From Lentzea aerocolonigenes (GTDB taxonomy: Bacteria > Actinomycetota > Actinomycetes > Mycobacteriales > Pseudonocardiaceae), in assembly GCF_000955955.1 (NCBI RefSeq), contig NZ_JYJG01000437.1:1-11546 (forward strand): 11,546 nt of DNA. Direction: 5' to 3'. The translations under genes and the position numbers were made by a program. Below are positions 2,370 through 11,201 of this stretch, piece after piece. Numbering within the stretch: the first letter of the stretch is position 1; each line of letters starts with the position of its first letter. The notes under the pieces are model-generated. The model was not told the DNA's origin, did not search any database, and worked only from the letters and a program-made list of their open reading frames with translations.

Positions 2370-3521
2370 TCAGGAACTCGTGTGAACAAGCGGATGCGGC
2401 ACGACCAGGTCCGGTGCGATGCGTATCGGCAGCTGATCCAGCCAGTCCACGAGCTCTTCAACGTGGCGAGGCACGAACGTGCCTAGGACGCGAAGCTCCG
2501 GTGAGTCGAGCAGGGCGCTTCGCATCTCCTTGTCGGTGAACACGGCCTCGCAATAGGCGTATGCGACAGAGACGGCGTCGATGTCGGTAACGTGGTTCGA
2601 CTTCCACACGTGCGCGGGGTTCTTGTGAAACCGAGTCTTCATGCTGATGGCCACCTGGGCATGCGGCATTGCTGCCACAAGCGCGCGCATTTGATCATTG
2701 GTGGGATCGAACGCTGGCTGCCCGGAGATGAGCCGCTCGACTTGAACGCGGGTGAACATGCCGAGCCACTCGTGGACGAACTCGCGACCCGCGACGAGGT
2801 CCCGAAGGCGCCCTCGTCGCAGTTTTGGTTTCTCGGCAAGGAAGCGGCCCGTTTCTCGCTCGAAGTCGACGCGACTCTCGTGACTCGCCAGTGCAACTTC
2901 GGGGCGATATCCGTGTTGGCTGCGAAGAACCTCGATCTCGTCGTCGGCTGGACCACGCAGCGCGCTGTGCTCGAGTTTGTAATTGAGCTCAGCCATCGTG
3001 TGATCGAACTCCGCCGCGCCAGCGGCACGACGAATGTCTTCGGTCTTGTCGTTGCTGTGCTCGTCCACGATCTTCAAGCCGCCGATCATGCCGAACGCGT
3101 GCCCGATGGTCGACCGGATGAGCGGGTGGCCGAGTTCATCGGGCAGCGGCTCACCGGTGATTGCGGCGATCCCGGCGATGAACTCGAGGTGCCCCAAGGT
3201 TGGGCGGTCCAGCATGTACTGATACCCAGTGAGCAGCTCGAGAACGTCCGACAAGGCGCCTCGTTGCTTTGGGTCGGCGATCTTGGAGATCTCCCAGACA
3301 TGGGATTCGCTCAGCGGGAAGACCGCACGACGTTCGGTCGCCGCGCGGCGAGCTGATTCGAACAGACGCCTGTACGCAGGGGCTGCCTTCGGATGGCCGG
3401 TTCGCACTCTGGCCATCGCGACGATGTGATTCAGGTCGAGGTACACCAGTGGAATTCTTGGGCGCATCACCTGCGCCCAGATCAGCTCGTCGGCCATGGG
3501 TGCCTTCAGTTGGCTCGCCAA
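2370..3521 (-). CDS. PIN-like domain nuclease, 383 aa from the TTG start
   Basis: The N-terminus (residues 24-34, IPLVYLDLNHI) matches the first strand and first acidic residue (D29) of PIN-like RNases of the 'YLDxNxW' type. 'FPLSESHVWE' follows, as expected for the second acidic position. The C-terminal segment DIDAVSVAYAYCEAVFTDKEM (residues 313-333, FTDK with D330) is the typical closing PIN strand. Such proteins cleave RNA with a metal ion, although targets for this subgroup are unknown to me. I chose TTG 3519-3521 because GGAAGGAG lies 7 bases upstream; ATG 3495-3497 (375 aa) is an alternative. The frame stays open further upstream, to GTG 3690-3692 or TTG 3714-3716, and would add a hydrophobic helix and a basic linker. 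The linker is rich in AGA/AGG codons unlike the rest of the gene, so I left it out. The gene heads the leftward operon. Confidence 0.85.
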   Translation of the reverse strand: MASQLKAPMADELIWAQVMRPRIPLVYLDLNHIVAMARVRTGHPKAAPAYRRLFESARRAATERRAVFPLSESHVWEISKIADPKQRGALSDVLELLTGYQYMLDRPTLGHLEFIAGIAAITGEPLPDELGHPLIRSTIGHAFGMIGGLKIVDEHSNDKTEDIRRAAGAAEFDHTMAELNYKLEHSALRGPADDEIEVLRSQHGYRPEVALASHESRVDFERETGRFLAEKPKLRRGRLRDLVAGREFVHEWLGMFTRVQVERLISGQPAFDPTNDQMRALVAAMPHAQVAISMKTRFHKNPAHVWKSNHVTDIDAVSVAYAYCEAVFTDKEMRSALLDSPELRVLGTFVPRHVEELVDWLDQLPIRIAPDLVVPHPLVHTSS

Positions 3522-3535
3522 CGCACCTCTCCTTC
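3513..3535 (-). promoter_or_regulatory. Ribosome binding site that decides the TTG start of the PIN-like gene
   Basis: On the minus strand GGAAGGAGAGG precedes TTG 3519-3521 at a standard spacing. No comparable site stands before ATG 3495-3497 or before the upstream in-frame GTG and TTG codons, except a weaker GAGG 8 bases before GTG 3690-3692. Confidence 0.5.
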
Positions 3536-3908
3536 CTGTCCTCCGAGATTCAGGGACAGTACCTCTGGACGTGCCTTGGTGGCGCCTCATTTCTCTGCAA
3601 GACAACCGGCTGCCAGGCTTGGGGAGTGCTTTCTTGATCGCGAACCAGGCCGAAGCTGTTACCAGGACGAGCAGTAGAAGGCCGACTGCCACTAGAAAAT
3701 CCTCGACGGCCTTCAAACAAGGGGCAGGGCCCGGTGTCGAAGAGGATCAACATCCTGCTCGAAGCGTAGCCACGAGAGCCACTCGTTGGTGTTTGAGTAC
3801 TCTCCTGCGTTCGTGTCGTGGCTTTGATCGGTCAGATGCTGTGCTATCGACAACTCTTGCGGGCGACAAGTACCCAAGAGCGACAAGCACAACCGGAGCC
3901 AAGCAGAC
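3522..3908. other. Divergent intergenic region (387 bases) with a possible hydrophobic reading frame
   Basis: This separates the leftward PIN-like operon from the rightward GT25/GH16 gene, so it should carry promoters for both. I cannot point to a confident -10/-35 pair. On the minus strand, 3522-3716 is open and in frame with the PIN-like gene. It encodes a strongly hydrophobic stretch (AVGLLLLVLVTASAWFAI) followed by a basic, Arg-rich linker. Near the right end the hexamer CGACAA occurs three times on the plus strand at 3848, 3864 and 3881, spaced 16-17 bases. Confidence 0.5.
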
Positions 3909-6011
3909 GTGAACACGCTGACGATTGAGGAGTTCGAGCGGCGCTTTGCCCATCGCGTTCGGATGAGGGCACGTGTACTCGATCCTCGCCGACGGGTCGC
4001 CGTGTTCTCCGATCGAGGGGAAGCGGACGCTCTCGGACGCATCTATGTGATCAACCTCGACCGGATGCCAGCCCGGTGGCGAAGGGTTCAACGCGAGCTG
4101 GACCGATTTCGTGGCCGGCACGGCGAGCGGTTGGCGGTGCTGGCACGCAGGATCTCGGCCGTTGACGCGCGCTTCATGAACGCTGACCCCGATCCATCGG
4201 TCCTTCGCCCCAGCTACACCCTGGCCGACCAGCTTGCCGTTGAGCCGAATCCGTTGTTGAGGATCGATGACGCTGCCCGATCGCATGAGATCTTCATGAC
4301 CGCGCAAGAGATCGCAGTGGCGCTGTCGCACATCGAGGCTTGGCGTCGCGTGGCCGCTGGCGAAGACCGGGCAGCGCTGATCCTGGAGGACGACGTTGTC
4401 ATGCTTTCGGGCTTTGCTCGTCGGCTCGAAGCGACGTGGATTGCGCTCGAGAGCTTCGACCTGCTCTATCTGGCCTTCAAGGACGTAAGCGCGGACAAGC
4501 CCAGGCCGGGCAGCGGACCGGTCCGCAGGCAGAAACCTGGTGTATGGGAGGCCGCCGCCTACGTTCTCACCAAGACCGGGGCACAGAGACTGCTTGATCG
4601 GTTGCCCGCTTTCGGTCCCATCGATCTATGGCTCAACCTGCAGTTCCACGCGATCAAGGCGTTCACCGCTGGACGACAGCTGGTCGAGCAGAGAATCGAC
4701 GAACCGTCGACCAACTCGTACTCCGTCCTCCCGGTGCTGTCACAGGTCGGCGTCATCACCAAAGAGAAGGCGCTGCTGCCCTCCTCGCCGAAGCTGCGCG
4801 GTCCAGTGATCGGGCTAGGAAGGGGTGGCCCTGGCACGACCTCCCTTGCCAAGGCACTCTCGATGATCGGCTACACGTGCCTGAGCGACCTCGACCTGAT
4901 GCCCGCGAGCGAACTCGGCAAGCTGCGTAGCGGCAACCGCGATCGGTTGTTCAACGCCTACATCAACATCGGTTCGTTGGACGACGACGCGCTTCTCCGT
5001 GAGATCGCAGCGGTAAATCCGCACGCTCTGATCATCGTGACATCGTCAAGCTCGCTGCCCCTTGGACCTCCCGCCGATCGAGTCCTACATCTGACCCCGG
5101 CCGTTGTGGACAAGTGGAAGACCCTCAGCGACTTCCTCAAGATCGAGTACCCGCCCTTCTCCTACCCCGAGATGGAGGACGTTGGCCAGAGGGTTGCCGT
5201 GCGCGGATGCTCCGTAGGCGCCGGGTGGCCAGCGGTCGATCTCAAGTTCGACGCATCACCTTGGATCGTCTTGCGAGAAAAAGACATGTGGCACGGAGTC
5301 TCAACCGAGTGCGATGAGCCATCGCGCACAGTTCCGGTTCCGGCCAAGTGGTCCGCAGGTGATCCGCTCGACGACGGTGAGACCTGGAAGCTTCGAAATG
5401 ACACCTTTCCCAGCAACCTCGTGCTCTTCTCCCCACGCAACATCAAGGCCGGAAACGATGGGTTCGCTCTGTGGGTGCGACGTGAGAAGACGCCGGTTCG
5501 TGAGTTCACGGGAGCAGCTGTCGCCAGCCGGGCGAGTCACCTGTACGGCTCGTTCGCAGCCGAGATGCGGCCAGCGAGAGGCTCCGGGCTCGTAACCGGG
5601 TTGTTCCTCCACCGCAACGGACCCCGCCAGGAGATCGACATCGAGTTCCTCGGTCGAGACACGACGAAGCTGCTCGTCAACGTTTACTACAATCCGGGCC
5701 CGGACGGAACCAAGCTTGAGTACGGCTATCGAGGAACGCCGACAATGATCAGCCTGGGCTTCGACGCCGCTGCGGAATTCCACACCTACGAGATCGACTG
5801 GCGACCAGACCGCATCGCCTGGAAAGTCGACGGGATAACGGTTTACGAGCGCAACGAGTGGAACCCGACCCCGATCCCCGATCGGCCTCTCGAGTTCAAC
5901 CTCAACCTCTGGTATCCCCGCTCGGCGGAGTTTGCCGGACGGCTCGACACCGCTGCTATGCCAGCGTGCGCAGAGGTTCGCTCGATCGTGCTCACACCCT
6001 CTGGTGCCTGA
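3909..6011 (+). CDS. Three-domain fusion: GT25 glycosyltransferase / sulfotransferase-like P-loop domain / GH16 glycoside hydrolase, 700 aa
   Basis: Residues 44-270 are a family-25 glycosyltransferase: RIYVINLDRMPAR (44-56) is the first strand, ISAVDARF follows, EIAVALSHIEAWR (134-146) is the family signature helix, ILEDDVVM (158-165) is the metal/sugar-nucleotide acidic cluster, and AAYVLTKTGAQRLL (217-229) and PIDLWLN (237-243) follow. Residues 298-430 resemble a sulfotransferase: GLGRGGPGTTSLAKAL (302-317) stands where the PAPS 5'-phosphosulfate loop is expected, and DKWKTLSDFLKIEYPPFSYP (401-420) resembles the family's late helix. Residues 440-695 are GH16 (laminarinase/transglycosylase clan), with the catalytic EIDIEF motif intact (E575, D577, E579). 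There is no signal peptide or membrane helix, so all three domains should be cytoplasmic unless anchored otherwise. The GTG start has only a weak CGGAG 10 bases upstream; ATG 3963 is possible and would keep all domains. The glycan substrate is unknown. A role in making and trimming or transferring a surface glycan is inference. Confidence 0.9.
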   Translation: MNTLTIEEFERRFAHRVRMRARVLDPRRRVAVFSDRGEADALGRIYVINLDRMPARWRRVQRELDRFRGRHGERLAVLARRISAVDARFMNADPDPSVLRPSYTLADQLAVEPNPLLRIDDAARSHEIFMTAQEIAVALSHIEAWRRVAAGEDRAALILEDDVVMLSGFARRLEATWIALESFDLLYLAFKDVSADKPRPGSGPVRRQKPGVWEAAAYVLTKTGAQRLLDRLPAFGPIDLWLNLQFHAIKAFTAGRQLVEQRIDEPSTNSYSVLPVLSQVGVITKEKALLPSSPKLRGPVIGLGRGGPGTTSLAKALSMIGYTCLSDLDLMPASELGKLRSGNRDRLFNAYINIGSLDDDALLREIAAVNPHALIIVTSSSSLPLGPPADRVLHLTPAVVDKWKTLSDFLKIEYPPFSYPEMEDVGQRVAVRGCSVGAGWPAVDLKFDASPWIVLREKDMWHGVSTECDEPSRTVPVPAKWSAGDPLDDGETWKLRNDTFPSNLVLFSPRNIKAGNDGFALWVRREKTPVREFTGAAVASRASHLYGSFAAEMRPARGSGLVTGLFLHRNGPRQEIDIEFLGRDTTKLLVNVYYNPGPDGTKLEYGYRGTPTMISLGFDAAAEFHTYEIDWRPDRIAWKVDGITVYERNEWNPTPIPDRPLEFNLNLWYPRSAEFAGRLDTAAMPACAEVRSIVLTPSGA

Positions 6012-6182: not shown

Positions 6183-6884
6183 GTGCCTCAGCCCGCGGCC
6201 ACCCTGACACGGCGACAGCTCGTCGAGCTGGCCGGGGCCGCACTCACGAACTCGGGCTTGCTGCTTGATGACGCGCAACTGCTCCTCACCGCTGGGAGAT
6301 GGCCGCGGGCATACGGCTTGGCGGTCTTGGCTGCCGAGGAGTTTGGCAAGTTTATGCTCTGCGCTACGGCGACACTCACCCTCGACGTCGCTGACGCCGC
6401 CTCGTGGAGCGACTTCTGGAAGAAGTTTCGCAGCCATCAAAAGAAGTTCGTGCTGTGGTTCGGCCAGTATGTAGACCAGCAGGACTGGGGTCCTGTTGGT
6501 TTAGCAGGAGATGAAGAGTGGCTGCGAGCGTGGGACTCCAGGCCTCATGAAGCTCGCCTGCACGACCTGGGCAAGCAATCCGGCTTGTACGTGAACTTCG
6601 ACGCCGGCAGCGTGCACGCCCCTGACGAAGTCGTCGCCGAGGAGACCGCGGCGAAGATGTTCGCCATGGTCGCGTCCGTCATTGGGCCGTGGATGCAGGA
6701 AGCGGAGATGTATCTGGCGCAGCTGCTCAATCCCGATCCGAGAATCGCGGCGATGATCGCCGAGATGCGTGCCTTGGGTGAGGTCCTGCCCGACGAACGC
6801 TCAACGGAGGCCCTCGATGCCTTCATGCAGAAGTATCTGCTCGGTAGTCACACGACGAACACGCGCTTTGAAGACGGCGACTGA
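6183..6884 (+). CDS. AbiV-family (HEPN) abortive infection protein, 233 aa
   Basis: The protein follows the AbiV layout. It opens with a helical stretch (AALTNSGLLLDDAQLLLTAG, 19-38), then WPRAYGLAVLAAEEFGKFML (40-59) with the hallmark A-EE-x-GK, then WSDFWKKFRSHQKKF (75-89). Further on, GKQSGLYVNFD (130-140) corresponds to the family's late 'lYvd' block. AbiV was described in lactococci as an abortive-infection protein that binds a phage protein (SaV) and blocks translation of phage messages. HEPN domains are often RNases, but I do not see a clean RxxxxH in the usual place. RSHQKK (83-88) is the nearest basic/His cluster. The length fits the family. The gene is 171 bases after the upstream gene and has its own strong ribosome binding site, so it is probably an independent unit. 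A defence role is inferred from the family. Confidence 0.85.
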   Translation: MPQPAATLTRRQLVELAGAALTNSGLLLDDAQLLLTAGRWPRAYGLAVLAAEEFGKFMLCATATLTLDVADAASWSDFWKKFRSHQKKFVLWFGQYVDQQDWGPVGLAGDEEWLRAWDSRPHEARLHDLGKQSGLYVNFDAGSVHAPDEVVAEETAAKMFAMVASVIGPWMQEAEMYLAQLLNPDPRIAAMIAEMRALGEVLPDERSTEALDAFMQKYLLGSHTTNTRFEDGD

Positions 6885-8536: not shown

Positions 8537-8863
8537 TCAGTTGGGAAGCGCGGCCTTTTCTTGCTCGACGGGCGTGAAGAGGTCGCCCACCACCGAAACG
8601 CGATCAAGCACGTTCTCTGCGGTGAACATCGACTGCTCCGCGGTCTCACAGCCATGGACCTCGTCCCACGTGATCGGCGTTGCCACGTTCGGCTCGTCGC
8701 GACCGCGCAACGAGTAGGGCGAGATGGTGGTCTTCGCGGGGTTGTTCTGGCTCCAGTCGATGAAGACTTTGCCTTCACGTTGCGACTTCGCCATGGTGGC
8801 TGTCACCTGTTGCGGTGCCTCTCGTTCGAACGCCACCGCGACGGCTTTCGCGTATGCCGAAGG
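8537..8863 (-). pseudogene. C-terminal remnant of a LigD-type polymerase (PolDom) gene
   Basis: The translated segment AYAKAVAVAFEREAPQQVTA, TMAKSQREGKVFIDWSQNN, KTTISPYSLRGR, VATPITWDEV, then FTAENVLDRVSVVGDLFTPV, follows the last third of LigD polymerase domains very closely, through to the natural C-terminus. These enzymes add nucleotides during Ku/LigD non-homologous end joining. A whole domain is about 290-300 residues, whereas only about 109 are left. The first two catalytic aspartates and the rest of the N-terminal part are absent; as I recall, the Asp in FIDWSQN is the third metal ligand. The frame meets TAA at 8900-8902 upstream with no recognisable homology above about 8863. A GTG at 8834-8836 could in principle start translation, but the product would be inactive. 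The remnant probably marks a recombination or insertion breakpoint. Confidence 0.85.
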
Positions 8864-9200
8864 AGCTAGTGCGCTGGGATGCCTTGCCGGATACGTGGCT
8901 TATATTGCGGCTAGCCTGATCACTCGCGTGGTCGGCGCGATCACGCTGGTTTCGTGGCTGTGCACGGCACCTCGAAGTAGCCGGCGTCGAGCGTGTCGAC
9001 GTTTGAGGGAGGAATCAGACGCTGGGTTGGTCGTCCGGCGTTCGAGGAAGACGCTGTGTACATTGCTGAGCGCATCAGAGCGAGCACGGTGTGGCCGACG
9101 TGTACCGGCACGCACAGGATTCGAAACGACGTGTAGCTGGTGCCAGAGGGAACGCGGCTGCCACTCAGTTCGTGATCGCCGTACGGTACAACGTTGCGCT
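8864..9200. other. Gap between the LigD remnant and the endonuclease VII gene, with fragmentary coding-like stretches
   Basis: No complete gene is convincing here. On the plus strand GTG 8993 begins a 46-codon frame (STFEGGIRRWVGRPAFEEDAVYIAERIRAS... to TAG 9131-9133). A second frame, open from 9070 after TGA 9067-9069, reads GVADVYRHAQDSKRR...QFVIAVRYNVAL to TGA 9202-9204. Read together with one frameshift near 9075-9090 they could be one broken small gene. GGGAGGA at 9007-9013 looks like a ribosome binding site with no good start after it. The frame of the endonuclease gene itself is also open back through this region, but its codon use there is poor. Confidence 0.4.
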
Positions 9201-9204
9201 GTGA
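9091..9204 (+). CDS. Possible short ORF (37 aa) overlapping the endonuclease VII start, perhaps the tail of a broken gene
   Basis: The frame ends CTG TGA so that its stop overlaps the next start as GTGA (9201-9204), a layout common in translationally coupled actinobacterial genes. The product from GTG 9091 would be VADVYRHAQDSKRR then AGARGNAAATQFVIAVRYNVAL. There is no Shine-Dalgarno before GTG 9091 or 9100. Family unknown. It may be only the C-terminal part of a gene whose front lies in another frame at about 8993-9090. Confidence 0.3.
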   Translation: MADVYRHAQDSKRRVAGARGNAAATQFVIAVRYNVAL

Positions 9205-9995
9205 CTTTGGATGAGCTTCCCCTGCACCGTAGGGAGGCCTTGCTGTGGCGACATGCGCTGGAATTGGACTACGACGGCGTGGACGACCTTGTGAGGTGCG
9301 CGGATCCGCGCCCGTGTATGAGTGCAGCACATGAGGTGTATAACCCGGTCATTGGCCCAGCAGAGCTGGGCGATGACGGCCGGTTTCATCTTCGCGTTGA
9401 CGATGAGCTGATCTGCGCGGTGAAGGCGAGTCGGCGAAGCTCACCGGACGTGGTGCGACACCGCGTGGCCTGCAGCTGGTGGACCGACGGGCAGTATTAC
9501 CGAACTCAGTTGCCGCCGATGCGCGATGGCGCAGTCGTCGTGGGACAGTTCCACCAGACGGTCGCCACGTGGACTGTTGTGCTGACCGGCACTACGCAGG
9601 CACCAGAGTTGGTGCCGCTCCGTCAGCGGTGCATGCCGGGTCTTCACTGGCCGCCTCAACTTGATTCCACCAGCCCGGTCGGGCTGGTCCGTGCGAAGGT
9701 GATCGCAGCGCTGGGTTGGTCGTGCGGTGGGTGCGGCAGCCGTGGTGAGTTCATCGACCATGACCATTTCACGGGCATGGTGCGTGGTTTGCTCTGCAAG
9801 CATTGCAACACCCATATCGACAACTGTGTTCATGTGTCGGGCTGCCCGTGGGCGGACTATCTCAACGATCCGCCGGCCGCGAGCCTGCAGCTGCGCTACC
9901 CCAAGGCAGATCGGGCCTGGACCAAGCCAGCTGCTCTCGCGCGAATCGAGTACTTGGGGTTCGACCCATTCGAGCGGGGACGCAAGAGCCTGTGA
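9201..9995 (+). CDS. Endonuclease VII-family (HNH/His-Me finger) nuclease, 264 aa
   Basis: The C-terminal domain (about 174-210) has the recombination endonuclease VII signature: C175-x2-C178, D186-H187-D188-H189, R195, and C199-x2-C202-N203. The four cysteines bind a structural zinc, and DH-x-H with Asn form the catalytic ββα-metal site that in phage T4 cuts branched DNA. T4 endonuclease VII is about 157 residues with this site near its start. Here the site follows about 170 residues of unrecognised, mixed-structure sequence (WRHALELDYDGVDDL, PCMSAAHEVYNP), and a short tail follows. I chose GTG 9201 because coding character improves there and because of the GTGA junction; no Shine-Dalgarno is present. 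The frame is open further upstream to TTG 9026. Such genes are common in phages and mobile elements. The 381-residue gene starts 60 bases downstream and is probably co-transcribed. Confidence 0.85.
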   Translation: MTLDELPLHRREALLWRHALELDYDGVDDLVRCADPRPCMSAAHEVYNPVIGPAELGDDGRFHLRVDDELICAVKASRRSSPDVVRHRVACSWWTDGQYYRTQLPPMRDGAVVVGQFHQTVATWTVVLTGTTQAPELVPLRQRCMPGLHWPPQLDSTSPVGLVRAKVIAALGWSCGGCGSRGEFIDHDHFTGMVRGLLCKHCNTHIDNCVHVSGCPWADYLNDPPAASLQLRYPKADRAWTKPAALARIEYLGFDPFERGRKSL

Positions 9996-10055
9996 GCACC
10001 GGCTGTGCGGCGCTCAGGTGGATGCGGTCGGCGGTTACCGAATCTCACTTCCGCC

Positions 10056-11201
10056 ATGAGCGACAATCAGATCGTGAACACCCGCTTCGACGAGGCCGAC
10101 TACCAGCTGCTGTGGCCGCGCGTCCTGTTCATCCAGGAGTCGTCCCGGCTGCTCAACAAACGTGCGCTCGACGACTGGAACGAGCGTTGCGAGTTGCTGC
10201 TGGAGGACGCGTTCGTTGGCGGCATGAGCGGCGGTCCGCTGAGCGAGTTCCAGGAGCTCGCGGACGAGCATCCGTGGAGCAAGGAGTCTCAGAAGACGGT
10301 GCCGCCAAGGCTGACCGCGAAGCAGAAGTTCCTGCGCGACTTGATGCAGAACGCCGCGCTGTTGAGGGAAGACGGATCACACCGCAAGCCCTACTGGTCG
10401 CAGAGGAAGAGCGGGACGGGTGCAGAGGTCGCGCGGCTGGGCGTGATCGTTCGCGGCTTCGTCGAGTTGGTCGAGGACCTGGAGCGCAAAGGGTACTTCG
10501 AGAAGCGTTTCGGAAAGGACTGTGTCGACAGCTACGACGGGGTCGACGCCTCATCGGTGATCGAGCGTGCCATTGGCGTCGGTGATCTGTGGCCGCTGAA
10601 GGCAGATCTACTCATCTCCGACCTTGATCTGTTCTGTGATGTGGTCGAGGTGCTGCACGACCTCGTCGCGCGGCCGACGGACCGCTCCTTCCATTCATAC
10701 AGCGGATGTGGATGGCACCACAGCGACTTTGCCATCGAGGCAGGACGGACCGTCTACAGGTGGCAGGTCAACAAGCTGCTTGCGCAGGGCGATCTCGGGT
10801 TGCTATTGGCCGAGGAGGGCGAGGACATCGGCCGCATGGTCACGGCGACCGCAGATGCTCGTCACGAACTGGTTGACGCGCTTGTGAAGAGTGCGGACGA
10901 GACGGGCGATCAGATTCGGCATGCCGTGGCGTTGTTCCGTGCGCGTGGAGCGGACCGGCATCAGAAGCGGTCGGCGGTGTTCACCTTGGCTCGGATCCTC
11001 GAGGGCAGGCGTGACCTCCTGCAGAACAAGCTGCTTCGCAAGGACGAGGGCGCGTTGTTCATGATCGCGAACCAATTCGACCTGCGGCACCAGAACGAGG
11101 CGCAGAAATCGGACTACGACGAGGCGTTCCTCGACTGGGTGTTCTGGTGGTACTTGGCAACCATCGAGCTGACCGACCGGCTTGCTTCTCGTGATGACTG
11201 A
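10056..11201 (+). CDS. Hypothetical protein, 381 aa, with a HEPN-reminiscent C-terminal domain
   Basis: ATG 10056 to TGA 11199-11201, with strong GC3 bias throughout. The first 17 codons of the longer open frame (from 10005) have a different composition, so I start at ATG, although no clear Shine-Dalgarno precedes it. I cannot name the family. The N-terminal ~150 residues are helical and charged (DEADYQLLWPRVLFIQESSR). The middle holds GVIVRGFVELVEDLERKGYF and LLISDLDLFCDVVEVLHDLV. The C-terminus (330-375), DEGALFMIANQFDLRHQN then DEAFLDWVFWWYLATIELTD, matches a pattern I remember from many bacterial hypothetical proteins (IAN-F-IRHxN...W..W.F..YLATI). R344-H345 and N347 could be an active-site cluster like that of HEPN proteins, but this is tentative. 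No signal peptide. It lies 60 bases after the endonuclease VII-type gene on the same strand, suggesting a two-gene unit. Confidence 0.85.
   Translation: MSDNQIVNTRFDEADYQLLWPRVLFIQESSRLLNKRALDDWNERCELLLEDAFVGGMSGGPLSEFQELADEHPWSKESQKTVPPRLTAKQKFLRDLMQNAALLREDGSHRKPYWSQRKSGTGAEVARLGVIVRGFVELVEDLERKGYFEKRFGKDCVDSYDGVDASSVIERAIGVGDLWPLKADLLISDLDLFCDVVEVLHDLVARPTDRSFHSYSGCGWHHSDFAIEAGRTVYRWQVNKLLAQGDLGLLLAEEGEDIGRMVTATADARHELVDALVKSADETGDQIRHAVALFRARGADRHQKRSAVFTLARILEGRRDLLQNKLLRKDEGALFMIANQFDLRHQNEAQKSDYDEAFLDWVFWWYLATIELTDRLASRDD

Follow-up and report, generated by a model that had tools for sequence, protein, structure and literature searches.

A fusion of GT25, sulfotransferase-like and GH16 domains from Lentzea aerocolonigenes and the rare mobile cassette of its relatives

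Prophage seroconversion cassettes are known to carry glycosyltransferase genes as cargo on mobile DNA, and the GH16 enzymes include the lichenases (beta-1,3-1,4-glucanases), which form GH16 subfamily 21. According to PMC6993521, enzymes of families GT25 and GT32 take part in flagellin glycan and lipopolysaccharide synthesis; an eLife 2021 paper describes a 5-hydroxymethylcytosine carbamoyltransferase acting on nucleic acid, and passages of PMC12724379 concern ornithine carbamoyltransferase. The gene considered here comes from Lentzea aerocolonigenes and encodes a GT25 glycosyltransferase, a shortened sulfotransferase-like domain and a GH16 hydrolase in one chain; it lies in a window of 11,546 nucleotides, the whole stretch of DNA that was analysed (contig NZ_JYJG01000437.1). 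Its wider context lay beyond the view of a preliminary description made from the window alone: the fusion is normally the second gene of a cassette, in which it follows a GT32-type glycosyltransferase gene and may be joined by a carbamoyltransferase gene related to the enzyme of the eLife paper, and this cassette is mobile and stands in defence-rich surroundings. It is tentatively considered, with confidence somewhat short of even, that the mobile cassette acts in the cytoplasm to build and edit a glycan and is probably retained as a defence against phages or competing mobile DNA.

Architecture of the fusion protein

The three-part architecture given in the preliminary description holds, as both outer domains exceed their Pfam cut-offs: Glyco_transf_25 (PF01755) matches with E 2.4e-11 and 44.3 bits against a cut-off of 24, and Glyco_hydro_16 matches residues 508-670 with E 1.2e-28. 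The fusion-family profile also matches procollagen galactosyltransferase 1 (COLGALT1; E 1.5e-13), and many members carry the source name 'GR25 family glycosyltransferase involved in LPS biosynthesis'. The nearest NCBIfam model is the BglS beta-glucanase (NF047856, E 2.9e-30); its equivalog cut-off of 300 bits is not reached by the 105.5 bits of the fusion. An AlphaFold2 model built from 70 rows has a mean predicted local distance difference test score (pLDDT) of 86.9 and a predicted template modelling score (pTM) of 0.83; the GH16 beta-jellyroll fold is present in the fusion, and in a fold search with the whole model the list is filled by GH16 chains.

A search of 5.8 billion proteins, in which 7994 candidates were scored, found 1019 homologues with E up to 1e-3; both outer Pfam domains are present in 119 of the 120 listed, the exception being P0079, a fragment of 540 amino acids (aa). 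A second search, with the protein of a distant member, L040 (L numbers denote the loci compared), gave 1988 matches, and all 120 of those listed contain both outer domains. Because the architecture is conserved across homologues, a chance open reading frame (ORF) is ruled out, as is the joining of separate genes by error that the preliminary description had allowed for. The hallmark residues it had named are confirmed: E160-D161-D162 (EDD) of GT25 and E575, D577 and E579 of GH16 are invariant in 70/70 alignment rows and in 24/24 rows of a wider alignment that takes in plasmid copies from Proteobacteria and Campylobacterota. Among the best 121 sequences, query included, EDD is missing only from P0050 and the fragment P0079, and the E-x-D-x-E triplet is missing from P0028; the 120 listed distant members all match the EDD pattern, and the GH16 motif is found in 109 of them by a strict pattern and in 120 by a loose one. 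In comparison with the 71%-identical relative in L050, the nonsynonymous rate (dN) is 0.193, the synonymous rate (dS) is about 1.0 and dN/dS is about 0.19, where dS near 1 is a rough estimate and part of the L050 divergence may predate loss of the GT32 partner; by region, dN is 0.142 for GT25, 0.163 for GH16, 0.244 for the middle domain and 0.606 for the linker. A membrane-like segment was not found (the top 19-residue Kyte-Doolittle mean is 1.19, and no dedicated signal-peptide predictor was used), in agreement with the earlier statement that the chain lacks a signal peptide and membrane helix. In L030 the annotated GH16 gene (13030-14148) is only the 3' part of an open frame at 11842-14148 (+), and this annotation hides the fusion.

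The middle domain was described earlier as resembling a sulfotransferase that may sulfate; the likeness in fold stands, while the activity is doubtful. Fold comparison finds the sulfotransferase fold in a shortened version; Sulfotransfer_4 matches the window protein only at residues 300-331 and, unlike the outer domains, stays below its cut-off (E 0.0052, 17.1 bits against 22.8). PF17784 is precomputed for 5/120 listed relatives of the window query and for 42/120 of the distant-member query. In a PDB profile search with the middle domain, sulfotransferases are matched at E 1.9e-4 to 3.3e-4 over the C-terminal motif only; midasin rows in the same search (E 0.0014) were taken as chance. Sulfotransferases have a P-loop Lys or Arg at the position equivalent to residue 307; this position is Gly in the window, Lys or Arg in 5/70 alignment rows, and Arg in 7 of the 112 distant members with a recognisable motif (120 listed), and in L034 and L035 the P-loop is unrecognisable. 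Around residues 374-385, a merely putative counterpart of the 3'-phosphate-binding Arg/Ser site, there is no conserved Arg except R374 in 27/70 rows. Since the P-loop Lys/Arg is mostly absent and the domain is shortened, an active sulfotransferase, and with it a sulfating step by this domain, is considered unlikely; the fold has been retained here although the usual catalytic P-loop residue has been lost.

The cassette and its carriers

The 24 fusion loci read were L004-L009, L030-L041, L044-L046, L050, L051 and the window; L036 and L037 are near-copies, as are three E. coli loci; the L031 copy runs off the end of its stretch and the L041 fusion is cut by a contig end. In 21 of the 24 the gene immediately before the fusion, in the same orientation, is a nearly complete GT32-type gene; the GT32 gene is split in L033, absent in the window, and in L050 it is cut to about its C-terminal half (10043-10429, minus strand), directly upstream of a full-length fusion. 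This L050 remnant stands beside PDC-S46 and Wadjet JetC genes. Two of the GT32 partners score 27.1 and 29 bits for PF04488, whose cut-off is 23, and the motif GG-x-Y-[VIL]-D-x-D-D occurs in 18/18 GT32 proteins (17 by script, L051 by eye). The distance from the GT32 stop to the fusion start was measured in 16 loci and ranges from -4 to +74 base pairs (bp); the overlapping junctions have ATG in 4/6 and CTG at the aligned position in L006 and L007, with start codons uncertain for L006, L007 and L038.

The longest contig of 38 of the 119 fusion clusters is exactly as long as that of a listed GT32 homologue, whereas 1000 jittered lists gave 0.66 such coincidences on average and never more than 4, which speaks independently for linkage of the two genes; 118 of the 120 listed GT32 rows (1888 in all) entered the comparison. 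The 38 include none of P0002-P0007, the six proteins nearest to that of the window, when these 118 of 1888 rows are compared, which is in line with GT32 loss in the window clade. In the window, tblastn with five GT32 queries at E 0.01 gave no match, and a single query at E 0.001 found none in its own genome, an assembly of 648 contigs with 96.6% completeness. The window copy is an orphan of the cassette that has lost its GT32 partner; it is either a pared-down form that stands by itself or a remnant in decay.

Left out of the cassette counts were L010, which matches the GH16 part only, and L042 and L043, which match the GT25 part weakly; L002, L003 and L011-L029 were unused because their matches are short and incomplete and almost always confined to the GH16 part. 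L042 (7884-8771) and L043 (4315-5202) carry stand-alone genes of 295 codons with 26% identity to the GT25 part, on viral contigs, and a GroEL-like gene, recognised by eye, adjoins them.

The third gene encodes a NodU/TobZ-type carbamoyltransferase composed of PF02543 and PF16861; it has PDB matches to GdmN, TobZ and the novobiocin enzyme, and matches PHROG 1601, a phage carbamoyltransferase family, over nearly its whole length (E 2.1e-73). Close matches occur in 9 of the 19 records searched (L006, L007, L030, L031, L034, L035, L039, L040 and L041), all beside the module; the L006 copy contains stop codons and that of L030 is broken in two. In the window's own genome and one other, the matches are of only 38-39% and lie on other contigs, and the gene is absent from 8 of the 19 records. 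The families recurring in at least 4 of the loci compared are the fusion, GT32, the carbamoyltransferase and two recombinase families.

The cassette is rare, scattered over four phyla and carried on mobile DNA, its named hosts being Actinomycetota, Chloroflexota, Pseudomonadota and Campylobacterota. The window's own genome holds the sole full-length copy among itself and 60 relatives, in which other matches are partial; full-length copies occur in 2/396 genomes across the phylum and 2/390 in the family (own genome in both), in 2/301 genomes of the phylum of G807, both already known from earlier searches, and in 4/5426 E. coli genomes, where two records share one strain name. Copies at 80% coverage or more are found in 9 of 72,556 plasmid records, and four of these plasmids are predicted to be conjugative. 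The E. coli pair is flanked by an integrase fragment, ArdC, MobC and type IV secretion genes, and its carrier region is interpreted as an integrative conjugative element. The contigs of L039, L040 and L041 are prophage-like, as each has a terminase gene together with a portal gene (L039) or an integrase gene (L040 and L041); L038, from a viral collection, has defence-type neighbours instead, and among viral contigs the L040 protein matched only L040's own contig. Six Enterococcus faecium plasmid records, NZ_CP116024.1 among them, carry a GH16 stretch about 33% identical to the GH16 domain of the window; the matches cover GH16 only, without the rest of the fusion.

Defence genes around the cassette

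A defence match was counted when at least 80% of a PADLOC profile was covered at E < 1e-50. At least one such full-length match is held by 9 of the 15 loci whose ORFs were scanned individually, a proportion that is not an unbiased rate, since the ORFs were chosen by the author and are mostly the largest; the matches are listed in Table 1. When 74 chosen neighbours were scanned together, there were PADLOC matches to the GajA/GajB, PDC-S06, mad3 and LmuB models and Pfam matches to BrxC/D, GmrSD, Abi_2 and ABC-3C domains. The largest non-module ORF has a defence match in 4/7 loci (L004, L005, L008 and L050; not L006, L007 or L009), compared with 1/10 control regions from the same genomes (L056, HmaA), and enrichment over the matched control is only suggestive. 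Of the 14 control regions asked for, L052, L053, L061 and L065 were dropped as too short, and G806 gave no usable region; the largest ORF was scanned except in L062, where the largest runs off the end and the second largest was used, and the largest ORF of L005 also runs off its end.

The gene downstream of the fusion in the window belongs to AbiV, a known abortive-infection family, with E 3.8e-28 to HEPN_AbiV in Pfam and 1.2e-30 to AbiV_defense in NCBIfam; its PADLOC AbiV match is weak (E 1.9e-4). The other neighbours are a 99-codon ORF at 8537-8836 (-), which matches only the C-terminal part of the LigD primase-polymerase (172-254 of 254; E 1.4e-28) and is probably a gene remnant; an ORF at 8724-9995 (+) with a C-terminal stretch resembling recombination endonuclease VII (E 9e-9); an ORF at 10005-11201 (+) that matches phrog_20667, a functionally uncharacterised phage family, over almost its whole length (E 2.7e-48) and PADLOC PDC-S32 weakly; and an ORF at 2370-3716 (-), which by eye only has a PIN-domain-like start motif, with no credible Pfam match.

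Table 1. Features of the window and full-length defence matches at the compared loci
Feature	Position or locus	Strand	Remarks
GT25 - pseudo-sulfotransferase - GH16 fusion gene	3909..6011	+	700 aa, GTG start
GT25 glycosyltransferase domain	4035..4718	+	about residues 43-270; Pfam Glyco_transf_25 at 45-232
E160-D161-D162, GT25 acidic motif	4386..4394	+	alignment conservation
Shortened sulfotransferase-like P-loop domain	4794..5198	+	about residues 296-430
P-loop remnant G304...L313	4818..4847	+	Gly at residue 307
GH16 lichenase-type beta-jellyroll domain	5331..6008	+	residues 475-700
E575-I-D577-I-E579, GH16 catalytic motif	5631..5645	+	alignment conservation
Upstream interval where relatives carry GT32	3717..3908	+	no GT32 trace in the window
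AbiV-family HEPN gene	6183..6884	+	171 bp downstream of the fusion, same strand
PDC-S06	L004, L008		PADLOC
HmaB, HmaC	L005		PADLOC; directly upstream
PDC-S06, AbiD	L030		PADLOC
Orf5-type DUF262	L035		PADLOC
Shedu SduA	L036		PADLOC
PDC-S53	L038		PADLOC
Lamassu LmuB	L044		PADLOC
Wadjet JetC, PDC-S46	L050		PADLOC

Proposed function and relation to known systems

In the proposed mechanism, GT32 and GT25 would add successive sugars from nucleotide sugars onto an acceptor; the middle domain would be a non-catalytic or merely ligand-binding spacer; GH16 would cut or transfer the nascent beta-linked chain, acting as a hydrolase or transglycosylase, which takes up the suggestion in the preliminary description of a transglycosylase or editor of a growing glycan; and the carbamoyltransferase, where present, would cap the glycan. 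The acceptor, donor, product, order of steps and protective effect are all putative. An acceptor found throughout bacteria, whether a lipid carrier, a conserved protein, RNA or an invading element, is favoured over a particular surface polymer because the cassette occurs in cells with very different envelopes, and its presence in four phyla points to something that very different bacteria share. Protection against phages or rival elements would most simply explain why plasmids, prophages and defence-rich islands carry the cassette; if it does protect against phages, making and trimming glycans inside the cell would rank with nucleases, NADases and membrane effectors among the means of defence, and even without a defence role the fusion would be an unusual enzyme, able to build and cut a glycan within one unexported chain. 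The fullest form of this proposal, a new kind of anti-phage or anti-plasmid system that works by intracellular glycan assembly and editing, with a dead sulfotransferase scaffold, an optional carbamoyl cap and an acceptor common to several phyla, is considered possible but less likely than not.

Several points weigh against a protective function. The chosen ORFs of L006, L007, L009, L032, L034 and L051 gave no full-length defence match; the control comparison, computed by hand, reaches p of about 0.06 one-sided in a small sample; and defence neighbours can ride on any mobile island. At E <=1, neither the fusion nor the carbamoyltransferase nor either of two GT32 proteins matched any family in PADLOC 2023, five of the nine carrier plasmids are predicted to be non-mobilizable, and 50,697 phage records gave no match with either of two queries. 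Phage resistance is a putative role read from motifs and gene context, and the window copy cannot run the whole proposed pathway because it has no GT32 partner.

The alternative that survives best is a mobile surface-glycan cassette that would add and carbamoylate side sugars on a lipid-linked envelope precursor and so block phage adsorption, protection being indirect, much as with prophage seroconversion genes. It is possible though doubtful: the lipopolysaccharide and flagellin glycan roles of GT25 and GT32 enzymes in PMC6993521, the source name that ties members to LPS biosynthesis and the prophage-like contigs fit it, but the hosts differ in envelope (Gram-positive actinobacteria, Chloroflexota and Gram-negative bacteria), the families recurring in at least 4 of the loci compared include no membrane or flippase family as in gtr-like seroconversion, and no export signal was found on the GH16 domain. 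That the genes form an ordinary carbohydrate cluster, for an exopolysaccharide or mixed-linkage glucan, with defence genes merely sharing its integration spots, is improbable; lichenases are the nearest match of the GH16 domain, which is also similar to ExoK (E 2.2e-15), and islands do gather unrelated cargo, but no other polysaccharide synthesis gene recurs in at least 4 loci, and the patchy occurrence within the family and the varied mobile carriers speak against it. Modification or counter-modification of nucleic acid, in which the glycosyltransferases and carbamoyltransferase would act on hydroxymethylated phage DNA or RNA and GH16 would trim the sugars, is kept alive by the PHROG 1601 match and by the related enzyme that can act on nucleic acid, and is the least probable, as Pfam finds no nucleic-acid-binding domain in the cassette, the carbamoyltransferase is missing from 8 of the 19 records and GH16 enzymes of known type cut polysaccharides.

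The cytoplasmic glycan-building and -editing cassette proposed here can be set beside described systems part by part. With the GT25 enzymes, such as the lipopolysaccharide galactosyltransferases and COLGALT1, the fusion shares the PF01755 match and the EDD motif, and it differs in that GT25 is joined to two further domains. From the GH16 lichenases it differs in being without an export signal that could be found, in scoring far under the BglS equivalog cut-off and in a conserved insert at about residues 596-611 with the motif YGYRG. The middle domain is a shortened form of the fold of sulfotransferases that use 3'-phosphoadenosine 5'-phosphosulfate (SgdX2, Cpz8 and the schistosome sulfotransferases), with about 135 residues against at least 195. 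The cassette carbamoyltransferase has both Pfam domains of the NodU/TobZ/GdmN O-carbamoyltransferases, but is present in only part of the loci. No description of the fusion or cassette was found in the literature searched, the scope of which took in neither subscription papers nor preprints; the preliminary statement that this is not a described system stands to that extent, although the architecture itself proved to be common in sequence databases. Seroconversion cassettes likewise carry glycosyltransferase cargo on mobile DNA, whereas here a glycoside hydrolase is fused to the glycosyltransferase and no flippase-like membrane gene recurs. Each domain comes from a known family, while the combination and the cassette lie outside PADLOC 2023, and the finding is rated as a case of mobile glycan-modifying cassettes.
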